Origin: a bacterium
GTDB taxonomy: Bacteria > Patescibacteriota > Minisyncoccia > UBA6257 > JAGOQP01
Assembly: GCA_021812345.1 (NCBI GenBank)
Contig: JAKANP010000005.1
Span: 1 to 56,359 of the forward strand
Reading direction: 5' to 3'
Length of the DNA: 56,359 nucleotides
The notes beneath the pieces were generated by a model, which worked only from the letters and a program-made list of their open reading frames with translations, was not told where the DNA came from and did not search any database. Shown piece by piece: positions 46,035 to 49,767 of the stretch. The first letter of the stretch is position 1; every line of letters starts with the position of its first letter. The position numbers and the translations under genes were made by a program.

Positions 46035-46064
46035 TTGCCAATGTAGCTCAGCTGGTAGAGCAAC
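46035..46064 (+). repeat. 30-bp direct repeat, left copy (tRNA-Thr 5' half)
   Basis: ttgccaatgtagctcagctg followed by gtagagcaac recurs exactly at 46787-46816, 752 bp away. It covers the tRNA-Thr 5' half up to the anticodon stem. Confidence 0.85.
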
Positions 46065-46104
46065 GCTAAAGTGTAGGTCACCGGTTCAAATCCGGTAGGT
46101 GGCC
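46037..46104 (+). pseudogene. Chimeric tRNA-Thr-like gene without anticodon
   Basis: A 68-nt tRNA shape. The 5' half is identical to tRNA-Thr(GGT) of 46789 for 28 nt. The 3' half matches tRNA-Thr(TGT) of 47182 (T-arm and AGGTGGC). The acceptor ends therefore mismatch (GCCAATG with AGGTGGC). The anticodon stem ACGCT/AGTGT is intact, but only AA remains of the loop, so positions 32-36 with the anticodon are absent. It cannot decode. It is probably a scar of insertion or recombination between tRNA-Thr genes. Confidence 0.75.
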
Positions 46105-46121
46105 TCAGAAGCAATTAGATG

Positions 46122-46151
46122 ACCACATTATTAACAGATAATGTGGTTTTT
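46122..46151 (+). terminator. Terminator after chimeric tRNA
   Basis: accacattat / ataatgtggt with loop taacag, then TTTT. It abuts the promoter of the LAGLIDADG-like gene. Confidence 0.8.
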
Positions 46152-46159
46152 GGTATAAT
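46152..46159 (+). promoter_or_regulatory. Extended -10 of the LAGLIDADG-like gene
   Basis: The TGG preceding TATAAT makes an extended -10. TATAAT ends 6 nt before the ATG at 46166, giving a leaderless mRNA. Confidence 0.6.
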
Positions 46160-46165
46160 AAAAAT

Positions 46166-46753
46166 ATGAAAATATCAAAAAAATTATTAGAGCAACTTTA
46201 TTTAAAAGAAAAATTATCCGTATCTCAAATAGCTAAGAAACTTAATCGTTCCATAAGCGGAATTAATTATTGGATTGAGATATATAAGATTAAGAAAAGA
46301 ACCATAAGTGAAGCGATTTATTCAAGACATAATCCTAAAGGAGATCCGTTTGTTTTTGTAAAGCCAAAAAATCAAAAAGAATCTGAATTATTTGGGTTAG
46401 GAATCGGCTTATATTGGGGAGAGGGAACAAAAGCTAATAAAAATACAGTAAGAATAGGAAATTCGGATGTTAATATCATTAAAGTGTTTATAAAATTTCT
46501 TAAAATCTTCTTTGGGGTTTCTAAAGAAAAACTAAAGTTCCAATTGCATTTATTTGATGATTTGAATATAAGTGATGCCGAAAAATATTGGCTGGAGAAT
46601 CTTTTTATTAATAAAAATCAATTATACAAAACAATCGTCACAAAAAGTGGTTCTCTAGGAACATATAAGCATAAAAATAAATATGGTGTGATAACATTAT
46701 ATTACGGCAATACTAAATTAAGAAATATTTTAGTAAATATGTTGCCAAAGTGA
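46166..46753 (+). CDS. HTH + LAGLIDADG-like homing-endonuclease family protein
   Basis: 195 aa. The N-terminus is a helix-turn-helix (LYLKEKLSVSQIAKKLNRSISGINYWIEIYKIKKRT). The core has LFGLGIGLYWGEGTKANK (residues ~72-89), a degenerate LAGLIDADG-type helix of the sort common in CPR proteins with an acidic residue at its end, then VRIGNSDVNIIKVFIKFLKIFFGV and YGVITLYYGNTKLRNILVNML. Only one clear motif is present, so it would act as a dimer or be a non-cleaving relative. It lies between the two copies of the tRNA-Thr 5' half and next to the group I intron. Nuclease activity is unproven. Confidence 0.7.
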   Translation: MKISKKLLEQLYLKEKLSVSQIAKKLNRSISGINYWIEIYKIKKRTISEAIYSRHNPKGDPFVFVKPKNQKESELFGLGIGLYWGEGTKANKNTVRIGNSDVNIIKVFIKFLKIFFGVSKEKLKFQLHLFDDLNISDAEKYWLENLFINKNQLYKTIVTKSGSLGTYKHKNKYGVITLYYGNTKLRNILVNMLPK

Positions 46754-46786
46754 AAAAGTGATGATATTATTTATCTTGTAGAACTA

Positions 46787-46816
46787 TTGCCAATGTAGCT
46801 CAGCTGGTAGAGCAAC
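46787..46816 (+). repeat. 30-bp direct repeat, right copy
   Basis: Exact copy of 46035-46064, forming the 5' half of intact tRNA-Thr(GGT). Confidence 0.85.
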
Positions 46817-47050
46817 TCCATGGTGAATTTTTGCCCATTTCGACGGAAACGCCGAGACGAATCTCGAATTACGGTTAAAGGCCTTTCTCGGGTTAAGACC
46901 GTAGCGCTTTTGCGCTCGAACGACTGACAAGAGGAGCTAAACTTTTTTTAAAAGCATGCTCAATATACAGTCTAATCCTCTAATAGAGATTTTTTGAAAT
47001 AGAGGTATGAATGAAGGAGTAGGTCGTCGGTTCAATTCCGACCATTGGCT
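46789..47050 (+). tRNA. trnT: tRNA-Thr(GGT) interrupted by a group I intron
   Basis: Exon 1 is 46789-46824 and exon 2 is 47014-47050. Joined, they give acceptor GCCAATG/CATTGGC, anticodon stem ACTCC/GGAGT, loop ATGGTAA (anticodon GGT), T-arm GTCGG/CCGAC and discriminator T. The other tRNA-Thr in the window also has discriminator T, which supports the identity. The insertion falls between positions 36 and 37. Confidence 0.82.
46825..47013 (+). ncRNA. Group I intron in tRNA-Thr(GGT)
   Basis: 189 nt with a 5' site after U36 and a terminal G. The P7 halves are GACTG (46922-46926) and CAGTC (46968-46972), the latter inside aatatacagtct, an S-element resemblance (consensus near atatagtct). A GC-rich hairpin gcgctttt-gcgc lies before it. 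An internal guide gcccat can pair with atgg of the exon, but the U at the splice site lacks an ideal G partner, so the exact 5' site is uncertain. Confidence 0.68.
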
Positions 47051-47109: not shown

Positions 47110-47182
47110 AGCCACCTCCCGGACTTGAACCGGGGACCTTCACTTTACAAAAGTGTTGCTCTACCAGCTGAGCTAAGGTGGC
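47110..47182 (-). tRNA. trnT: tRNA-Thr(TGT)
   Basis: 73 nt on the minus strand. Acceptor GCCACCT/AGGTGGC, anticodon stem ACACT/AGTGA (A-A mismatch at 27-43), loop TTTGTAA (anticodon TGT), T-arm CCCGG/CCGGG, discriminator T. Its 3' half resembles the chimeric tRNA at 46037. Confidence 0.9.
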
Positions 47183-47261
47183 TTTCTCTTTTCAAACATC
47201 AATAATAAGACTTAAGATTTTATTATTCTGAAGTTTTATTATGTGGGTAGGGTGAGAGTCG
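47179..47261. repeat. 83-bp direct repeat, first copy
   Basis: The segment from tggctttctcttttcaaaca to gggtagggtgagagtcg is identical to 47378-47460, period 199 bp. Its end is the last 17 nt of tRNA-Tyr (minus strand), and its start overlaps the first bases of tRNA-Thr(TGT). Confidence 0.9.
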
Positions 47262-47377
47262 GCCTCGCCTCTGTCGCTCGCCGTCGCTCGCGCCAGGGAC
47301 TGACCACCGCCTCGCGCGCTCGTCTTATGACTCGCGCATGCTCCGAGCGTTCGCCTCTCACTTGAAAGCCAAGCAGT
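47262..47377. mobile_element. 116-bp GC-rich insert between the 83-bp repeats
   Basis: This segment is GC-rich (cgctcgccgtcgctcgcgcc and similar) and unlike the AT-rich surroundings. It ends with a small palindrome (aaagccaa/ttggcttt) that overlaps the second repeat copy. It carries no gene. It looks like a miniature inserted element at the tRNA-Tyr 3' end with the flank duplicated. Confidence 0.5.
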
Positions 47378-47460
47378 TGGCTTTCTCTTTTCAAACATCA
47401 ATAATAAGACTTAAGATTTTATTATTCTGAAGTTTTATTATGTGGGTAGGGTGAGAGTCG
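47378..47460. repeat. 83-bp direct repeat, second copy
   Basis: Exact copy of 47179-47261. It includes the true 3' end of tRNA-Tyr(GTA) and its downstream flank. Confidence 0.9.
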
Positions 47461-47527
47461 AACTCACGCGGGCACATTGGCCAACGGTTTTACAGACCGC
47501 CCTCGGCCCCTACGAGACTACCTACCC
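47443..47527 (-). tRNA. trnY: tRNA-Tyr(GTA)
   Basis: 85-nt class II tRNA on the minus strand. Acceptor GGGTAGG/CCTACCC, anticodon stem GCGGT/ACCGT, loop CTGTAAA (anticodon GTA), a long variable arm (TGGCCAATGTGCCCGC), discriminator A. The last 17 nt of its 3' end are duplicated at 47245-47261. Confidence 0.92.
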
Positions 47528-48987: not shown

Positions 48988-49767
48988 ATGAAAAAGCACT
49001 TTGTTATGTTTATCGTCTTGTGCTTCGTCGTGCTCACGCTGAGCACGACCGGGGCGTTCGCTGAGAGCAACAGCGTGCCGATGTGCCGGCTGGGGGTCAA
49101 CCCGGTCGACACACACCGTCAGGTGGACTGGTCTACCCAGTGCACTCTGACGCTAACCTCGCCGCAAGTGGTGAGGATGGAGTCCGCGAGCGGCGACATC
49201 AGCACCTGTCGATTGGCTACGGGAACCTCCGTGGTCATCGACAAGGAGACGAGCAGGGCGGAGTACGTTCGTTTCTGCTCCAATCCTCTGCCGGATCATC
49301 CGTTTCTGTCAGGGCAACGGGATTGTGCCCCTCCAGCCACGGAGAGGGTGGTGGTGCAGACCGAACGGCCTGCGGCAGTCATCCACCAACCAACTGCTAC
49401 CGTCAGGATCTTCCACAACGGTCTGGACATTACCAATACGAAGGTGAAGCCCGGCACCGAGGTGGTGGTCGTGTGGGAGTCAACCCACGCGGATCAGTGT
49501 GTGGCACTGTCCGGTTTTGGGTTCATGACCAAGGGAGAACCCTTCGGTTCAGAGAGAGTCTCTCTGAATCAGAAGGGCCTCTACACGTACAGCGTACAAT
49601 GTCATGGCCCGGCTGGGTACGTCGTGAGCGAGGACGCCAACATCGCAGTCAAATCCAATCCCTGGGGTTGGATCGTTGGTGGCATCTTGCTGGCTATCGT
49701 CGCAGCCGCCGCCGGTGGTGGTGGAGGCCATCACTCGTCGGTTCGCCAAGGGCCGACCATTCCTTAG
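48988..49767 (+). CDS. Secreted/anchored protein of foreign base composition
   Basis: 259 aa. The signal peptide is residues 1-25 (GAFA|ESNSV). A Cys-containing N-terminal region is followed by an Ig-like domain (residues ~140-222, ATVRIFHNGLDITNTKVKPGTEVVVVWEST ... YSVQC). The end has a hydrophobic helix (GWIVGGILLAIVAAAA) and a Gly/His-rich tail. Codons and composition are clearly GC-rich in contrast to both neighbours. A strong ribosome-binding site and a long double-hairpin terminator frame it. This looks like recent horizontal transfer. I do not recognise the family. Confidence 0.8.
   Translation: MKKHFVMFIVLCFVVLTLSTTGAFAESNSVPMCRLGVNPVDTHRQVDWSTQCTLTLTSPQVVRMESASGDISTCRLATGTSVVIDKETSRAEYVRFCSNPLPDHPFLSGQRDCAPPATERVVVQTERPAAVIHQPTATVRIFHNGLDITNTKVKPGTEVVVVWESTHADQCVALSGFGFMTKGEPFGSERVSLNQKGLYTYSVQCHGPAGYVVSEDANIAVKSNPWGWIVGGILLAIVAAAAGGGGGHHSSVRQGPTIP

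Follow-up and report, generated by a model that had tools for sequence, protein, structure and literature searches.

How does a tRNA gene come to be preceded by a hybrid tRNA that shares its 5′ half and lacks part of its anticodon loop, with an endonuclease-like gene between the two? The question is raised by a contig (JAKANP010000005.1, here C23) from the 725-kb draft genome of a member of the Patescibacteriota, assembled in 27 contigs; the whole 56,359-nucleotide stretch was analyzed and is referred to below as the window. Read 5′ to 3′, the locus consists of EF-Ts, a 121-aa ORF, a chimeric tRNA-Thr, a 195-aa ORF, and an intron-split tRNA-Thr(GGT). Beyond the latter, the opposite strand carries tRNA-Thr(TGT), tRNA-Tyr, and tRNA-Trp, with L33 between tRNA-Tyr and tRNA-Trp. 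The individual features are as follows.

46035 to 46064, + strand: first copy of a 30-bp repeat and GGT-type tRNA-Thr 5′ half (tRNA bases 1-28 at 46037-46064)
46037 to 46104, + strand: chimeric, anticodon-less tRNA-Thr, a presumed remnant, with a GGT-type 5′ half and a TGT-type 3′ half (Rfam tRNA model, 39.3 bits)
46065 to 46165, + strand: TGT-type 3′ half and spacer up to the putative endonuclease gene (best match in 244 genomes, the corresponding junction in relative G175)
46122 to 46147, + strand: inverted repeat ACCACATTAT/ATAATGTGGT near the promoter (from the sequence)
46154 to 46159, + strand: −10 box TATAAT, 6 nt 5′ of the ATG (from the sequence and a comparison of loci)
46166 to 46753, + strand: gene for a 195-aa HTH-LAGLIDADG protein, a putative free-standing homing endonuclease (ORF, homologues, structure model)
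46742 to 46753, + strand: relic of a tRNA 5′ end within the 3′ end of the gene, TTGCCAAAGTGA versus TTGCCAATGTAG (comparison with homologues)
46787 to 46816, + strand: second copy of the 30-bp repeat (exact)
46789 to 46824, + strand: tRNA-Thr(GGT) 5′ exon, bases 1-36 (from the sequence)
46825 to 47013, + strand: ORF-less group I intron of 189 nt that separates tRNA bases 36 and 37 and ends with G (structure and covariation)
47014 to 47049, + strand: tRNA-Thr(GGT) 3′ exon, bases 37-72 (same sequence as in the nearest sister genome, where the gene is intronless)
47110 to 47182, − strand: intact tRNA-Thr(TGT), the copy proper to the genus (97% to sister genome G001)
47442 to 47527, − strand: tRNA-Tyr(GTA), in an inverted Tyr-Thr(TGT) block (tRNA search and comparison with relatives)

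A first-pass annotation of the window had described a 30-bp piece of tRNA-Thr(GGT) repeated 752 bp apart, a first copy running into a tRNA-Thr(TGT)-like 3′ half, a LAGLIDADG-like gene between the copies, and a group I intron in the neighboring tRNA, and each of these observations was borne out. The repeat, TTGCCAATGTAGCTCAGCTGGTAGAGCAAC, is exact at 46035-46064 and 46787-46816, and base composition predicts only ∼1e-8 30-mer pairs of this kind for the window. The exact match between the 5′ half of the chimera and the downstream tRNA covers 28 nt, where the best shuffled score was 10. The 3′ half of this 68-nt tRNA-like unit is the same as the neighboring tRNA-Thr(TGT) at 32/36 positions, and its best matches are tRNA-Thr(TGT/CGT) genes. 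Two of the four differences from the TGT 3′ half of the genus constitute a paired change in the T stem, C49-G65 to A49-T65. Five anticodon-loop bases are absent from the chimera. The annotation had placed this loss at positions 32-36, exactly up to the intron site of the neighboring tRNA; the loss itself stands, while its position is uncertain by one base, as 31-35 fits equally well in a run of T. The acceptor stem contains mismatches at 5-68 and 7-66 and ARAGORN gives no tRNA call for 46037-46104, and for these reasons the chimera is taken for a dead remnant. It occupies the position of an intact tRNA-Thr(TGT) in relatives of the family. Moreover, the chimera 3′ half and spacer (46062-46165, query positions 6-98) match the junction between tRNA-Thr(TGT) and endonuclease gene in G175 at 78%, the best match in 244 genomes.

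The 195-aa protein was modeled by AlphaFold (mean pLDDT 89) with an N-terminal HTH (residues 1-45) and a C-terminal domain, the LAGLIDADG domain (residues ∼59-195), which contains the motif GLGIGLYWGEG at residues 77 to 87. The residues G85-E86-G87 at the end of this motif, including its acidic residue, are invariant in 22/22 members. Structure comparison aligned the model with the TliVMA intein endonuclease domain (7qsu; Z 9.4, 85 residues, rmsd 2.8) and with I-DmoI (Z 6.7 over 79 residues). This fold match came from a second look at Foldseek's own match list; OmpA/MotB-like domains, mostly unrelated, topped the Foldseek ranking, and the second comparison favored LAGLIDADG endonucleases. A sequence search against solved structures gave no LAGLIDADG match, the best being a stretch of 8vd6 in the HTH region, and Pfam LAGLIDADG_3 matches 1/22 members weakly (E 0.0075). 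The protein has no GIY-YIG domain, having an HTH and a LAGLIDADG fold instead. Based on the model, we regard it as a putative LAGLIDADG homing endonuclease for which DNA cleavage is predicted.

Homologues at E ≤1e-5 were found in 105/244 genomes of the order. A close homologue was defined as a match below E 1e-50, and 25 genomes, that of the window included, carry one among the matches listed. The gene tree is weakly resolved, with 12/78 inner branches starred; it follows lineage in part, several lineages cluster, and the window groups with Wolfebacteria GWA1_42_9 (SH-aLRT 97). A −10 box matching at 5/6 positions or better lies within the last 45 nt before the gene in 69/80 loci (control, 98/405), and the transcript of the window gene is possibly leaderless. 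The inverted repeat at 46122-46147 is a candidate terminator or, purely as an idea, an operator, and G175 has the same arms with a change of one T-A pair to C-G. Across loci, promoter palindromes are modestly above shuffles (arms scoring ≥10 in 14/79). As a side observation, inverted repeats stand beside the −10 box in several loci (e.g., L200, L203, and L024), some of them resembling a tRNA D arm (TTGGTAGAG); such repeats may be an autoregulatory site.

The intron directly follows U36 of tRNA-Thr(GGT) and holds no ORF. Twenty-six distinct introns from relatives and the window were aligned; they are 184 to 230 nt long, end with G in 26/26, and all follow the GGT anticodon. An intron of this length has no room for a gene of the HTH-LAGLIDADG kind. 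RNAalifold yielded the group I helices P1, P2, and P4 to P9, the helix names being our own reading, and the P3 pseudoknot was added by hand. With P3, 95.6% of cells are paired and 26/52 pairs change on both sides, although pair 90-102 was shifted by a gap column and hence went uncounted in 24/26 rows. P3 itself is 100% paired, with changes on both sides in 1/3 pairs. The covariation score was 0.433 (shuffled, 0.138), and 0/500 shuffles came up to this score or to the number of pairs changing on both sides. A U·G pair is present at the 5′ splice site in 25/26 introns, the exception probably being an alignment slip. The Rfam group I model gave no match at E ≤1 for the window intron or at E ≤10 for six relatives, while the core motifs are present; the assignment of the 189-nt insert as a group I intron is therefore based on structure and covariation, and its splicing is putative.

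Comparison with relatives indicates what was inserted. Both genomes of the same genus (G001 and G002) lack the close gene and carry an intact tRNA-Thr(GGT) with no intron. The spliced tRNA-Thr(GGT) of the window is identical to that of G001 at 74/74 positions and differs from that of G002 at two. From the intact, intronless site in the sisters and this identity, it follows that everything between the chimera 5′ half and the 3′ exon is an insertion. It is bordered by GGT bases 1-28 (46037-46064) on the left and by base 37 (47014) on the right, spanning approximately 46065 to 47013. Its parts are the 3′ half of a TGT-type tRNA and the spacer that follows, then the gene, a new 5′ half of GGT, and finally the intron. 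The first-pass annotation had delimited an inserted unit at 46065-46816; an insertion is indeed present, and it extends through the end of the intron at 47013. The gene order in G001 is Tyr(+), Thr(TGT)(+), Thr(GGT)(−), and the window carries the same block inverted. Three other genomes (G174, G175, and G179) have the order Thr(TGT), gene, Thr(GGT) with intron, and thus resemble a donor. In the genus of the window, bases 8-28 of the TGT and GGT genes are identical.

These observations lead us to a reading that we consider reasonably probable, in which a free-standing endonuclease and an ORF-less intron would have shaped the locus by collaborative homing, with the upstream tRNA-Thr(TGT) of the donor serving as the left recombination arm and the chimera left behind. 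The endonuclease would cut the intronless tRNA-Thr(GGT) at or near 36/37. The right broken end would then pair with the tRNA 3′ exon of the donor, and the native 3′ exon would be kept. The left end, comprising tRNA bases 1-28, would pair not with the donor GGT gene but with the paralogous tRNA-Thr(TGT) upstream of the donor's endonuclease gene, a step suggested by the chimera and made possible by the likeness of bases 8-28 between the Thr paralogues. As a result, the TGT 3′ half, the endonuclease gene, the GGT 5′ half, and the intron would be copied in jointly, whereas a left end paired in the usual way, with GGT, would bring in the intron alone, without the gene. Finally, the intron would splice out, the tRNA would stay functional, and the redundant, anticodon-less chimera would decay. 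Double-strand-break repair with the left end on the donor TGT and the right on the GGT 3′ exon is the simplest reading of the sequence, and the TGT-type 3′ half, which looks foreign, is best interpreted as the left arm of that homing event. The GGT-type 5′ half could derive from either donor or recipient. The loss of five loop bases may have occurred during or after insertion, and the mechanism gives no account of it.

Intron and gene insertion are part of one event or system. In a test within the order with one row per genome, the intron was present in 16/25 genomes with the close gene versus 10/97 without it (Fisher p 1.1e-7); the gene-negative loci comprised 8 of the family and 100 L33-anchored stretches drawn from 206 genomes with an L33 match, of which 11 loci with no visible Thr(GGT) were dropped. 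The two are also separable, with 9 gene-positive loci lacking the intron and 10 intron loci lacking a close gene. Their histories appear partly separate because the window intron is closer to those of G177 (69.6%) and G174 (69.2%) than to that of G175 (61.3%). The anticodon arm is altered in most intronless tRNAs beside the gene: the common arm, ACTCCATGGTAAGGAGT, occurs in 1/30 of them among the best 80 of 125 close homologues, a set that overlaps the within-order nine and spans more lineages than the control. Within the order, the common arm was found in 1/9 intronless tRNAs beside the gene versus 39/87 without it (p 0.075). As a counterexample, the gene in G168 (L011/L170) stands beside an unaltered, intronless arm. 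Protection of the tRNA gene against its own nuclease, by the intron or by an altered site, would fit the overall pattern, and the intron association and altered arms bear indirectly on whether the nuclease target coincides with the point of intron insertion.

The arrangement recurs in many related lineages. Using an alignment as the query, 125 close homologues were found among named genomes (Wolfebacteria, Liptonbacteria, Moranbacteria, Saccharibacteria, Peribacteria, Doudnabacteria, and others), of which the best 80 were kept; a scan of the same contigs with the single protein gave no match. Among these best 80 of 125, a tRNA-Thr lies directly downstream on the same strand in 80/80 (79 GGT, 1 CGT): an intron splits 48, another 30 are GGT and uninterrupted, one more GGT is truncated at the contig end, and the last is CGT. 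The endonuclease gene is outside the ORF-less intron (184-230 nt) and adjoins it, upstream of the tRNA. In the same best 80 of 125, the ORF overlaps the tRNA in 53. In 41/80 it stops precisely on T8-A9-G10 of the tRNA, and 12/80 run deeper, with the stop at 19-21 (n = 3), at 36-38 (n = 4), or further still (n = 5). The C-terminal Leu-Pro codons of overlapping ORFs often belong to the tRNA 5′ end. The window and G175 have an ORF that no longer overlaps the tRNA, yet it ends with TTGCCAAAGT, a relic of TTGCCAATGT; the codons equivalent to 46742-46753 are the tRNA 5′ end itself in 41/80 homologues (best 80 of 125). The unit was sought beside tRNA-Thr elsewhere, as the first-pass annotation proposed, and while the adjacency of the gene was general (80/80 of the best 80 of 125), the 5′ piece upstream of the gene was confined to the window and possibly L162 (13 nt) and L165 (9 nt) among 79 loci tested, the window included. 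A second shift between tRNA-Thr paralogues is seen in L210, where the order is Thr(GGT) with intron, gene, Thr(CGT).

More distant homologues are also found next to tRNA genes. In a set of 46 (40 stretches chosen down the homologue list, L002, and L027-L031), a tRNA or intron-split tRNA starts ≤200 nt downstream in 38/46; for a random point in this genome, the chance of a same-strand tRNA start within that distance is estimated at ∼0.6% (41 tRNA matches/725 kb). The adjoining tRNAs are Ile(TAT) (14), Gly (12), Arg (5), Tyr (2), Ala (2), Met (1), and Thr (2), mostly detected as uninterrupted. One further homologue, L239, stands by eye before a tRNA-Tyr that contains a group I intron. Because the ORF usually ends inside the tRNA in the wider family, nuclease and tRNA would move jointly, and they are probably transcribed together. 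From this we tentatively propose, at somewhat less than even chance, that CPR bacteria contain a large HTH-LAGLIDADG family merged with tRNA genes. A single transcript would be both nuclease mRNA and tRNA precursor, such that 5′ cutting by RNase P and complete translation would be mutually exclusive. The mobile unit would consist of the nuclease and its own cleavage-proof tRNA, with an altered anticodon arm or an intron, and essential tRNA genes would spread between lineages as homing cassettes, with clades specialized by tRNA (Thr, Ile, Gly, Arg, Ala, and Tyr).

Other explanations of the locus account for part of this evidence. Rearrangement within the genome, without transfer, would have gene and intron inherited vertically, the first 28 bases of the TGT copy beside the gene overwritten by conversion from GGT, and that copy then decaying while another TGT copy remained functional. 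Divergence of the gene from G175 (70% protein identity) resembles that of its neighbors (EF-Ts 68, L33 73, and PCMT 64%) and is normal for the family, so that vertical inheritance followed by losses in G001 and G002 would be compatible; the tRNA-Thr(TGT) directly upstream of the gene in G174, G175, and G179 and the exact sharing of bases 8-28 also fit. The cost is loss of gene and intron in both G001 and G002, the need for a second TGT, and a chimera 3′ half that lacks the TGT signature of the genus, where a paired C49-G65 to A49-T65 change would arise only occasionally by drift in a dead copy. We consider this history unlikely, although it deserves consideration. The draft state of the genome (27 contigs) invites the suspicion that two alleles were joined at their common tRNA 5′ half. 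Such a misjoin at the shared 21 bases would give an intact TGT anticodon loop rather than a five-base loss with a GGT-type acceptor strand, and the gene-tRNA order is found again in many independent assemblies, which makes an artefact scarcely credible.

Two further explanations concern the nature of the element. The first-pass annotation read it as inserting into the tRNA 5′ half and regenerating that half. An insertion with a regenerated half fits the intact sister genes, and the direct repeat at both ends, together with the short 5′ pieces in L162 and L165, is what a self-contained element integrating at, and carrying a copy of, that half would leave. Yet the insert holds no recombinase: its one ORF of note encodes the HTH-LAGLIDADG protein, with no tyrosine or serine integrase. 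The 5′ piece is rare among the 79 loci, and relatives adjoin the tRNA 5′ end without such a repeat, nearly always free-standing against the tRNA, so that we judge self-contained integration highly improbable. That annotation had also asked whether the arrangement might be fixed across a clade with no mobile variants; contrary to this, the close gene was found in 4/13 family genomes searched, and gene and intron also occur apart. Alternatively, the protein could be a maturase or a regulator of the tRNA or intron rather than a nuclease in this role, as the N-terminal HTH, the inverted repeat near the promoter, and the intron association might suggest. This is quite doubtful, given that the intron is absent in 9/25 gene-bearing genomes, that 10 intron loci lack a close gene, and that distant members mostly adjoin tRNAs detected as uninterrupted.

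Collaborative homing by way of the donor tRNA-Thr(TGT), the reading we prefer, has partial counterparts in known systems. A homing endonuclease aimed at the anticodon region of a tRNA with a group I intron has reportedly been described, intron-encoded according to the title of the work, unlike the free-standing gene found here. Collaborative homing is established in phages, where, according to the parts of the sources available, an ORF-less intron and a separate neighboring endonuclease gene are likewise tied to one conserved site and able to occur apart (PMC3984707, PMC2988022). The present case would differ in having a LAGLIDADG protein instead of the phage enzymes, an essential bacterial tRNA gene as target, an overlap of gene and tRNA, and paralogous tRNAs that appear as recombination arms, with cleavage predicted. 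In phages T4/T6, the 5′ end of tRNA-Tyr and the 3′ end of segB share microhomology and recombine there, giving a 718-bp tRNA-segB repeat unit (PMC13096335). SegB is similarly a free-standing endonuclease linked to tRNA genes; in contrast, it is a phage-borne GIY-YIG enzyme that makes amplifications, and an intron partner is not mentioned in the available portion of that source. The LAGLIDADG enzymes of CPR rRNA insertion sequences, such as I-ShaI, are well described and share the CPR hosts, the single LAGLIDADG domain, the group I introns, and homing, but their ORFs lie inside rRNA introns, and the word "tRNA" is absent from the main text as available (PMC11270868). Some tRNAs of circularized genomes, nearly all CPR, carry group I introns (PMC8172020); these are alike in kind, and the accessible part of the source gives no isoacceptor, position, or linked endonuclease. 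In the licence-limited literature searched, we found no report of CPR endonuclease genes that adjoin or overlap a tRNA gene, nor of a LAGLIDADG family abutting or overlapping tRNAs that combines an ORF-less intron partner with a paralogue-templated chimera.

If our reading is right, tRNAs, which are essential and highly conserved, are both target and carrier of a mobile nuclease in many CPR lineages. This would account for tRNA introns, hybrid tRNAs, and the seemingly missing tRNA-Thr(GGT) in reduced genomes, and would add a case of collaborative homing on a bacterial chromosome. In that event, the chimera would be a rare footprint of an extra-intronic endonuclease gene carried along via pairing with a neighboring paralogous tRNA. 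Furthermore, the same-strand overlap of coding gene and tRNA poses a testable question on RNase P and translation.

Several minor observations were made alongside. Distant viral relatives (24-31% identity) occur on six IMG/VR contigs of 110 to 497 kb (L275-L280); all six loci hold tRNA genes, five of them with four or more within ∼4 kb. By eye, a different, canonical-looking group I intron splits tRNA-Tyr(GTA) upstream of the gene in L207 and downstream of it in L239, and a distant homologue in L270 (G117) comes immediately after what resembles the 3′ portion of a group I intron, instead of standing before a tRNA. In L019/L020, a broken-up tRNA-Thr 5′ half (GCCAATGTAGC ... GAGCAACTC) lies directly downstream of the gene, and after it comes a complete tRNA-Thr(GGT) whose sequence differs. 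In the window, 48988-49767 encodes a GC-rich 259-aa ORF (59% versus 37% for the window) that has no Pfam or PHROG match. A 91-bp direct repeat (97%) at 47176-47266 and 47375-47465 contains the tRNA-Tyr 3′ tail and downstream flank, and the GC-rich stretch (66%) between its copies is missing from sister G001; judged from the sequence, this looks like a second, different insertion that duplicated a tRNA 3′ tail. tRNA 3′ tails are also repeated ∼85 to 160 bp downstream in L012, L024, and L027 (tRNA-Thr(GGT)) and in L181 (tRNA-Tyr), and in most of these the copies are separated by sequence that is GC-rich or palindromic; in L024 a palindrome lies within the T loop of the duplicated tRNA 3′ half.
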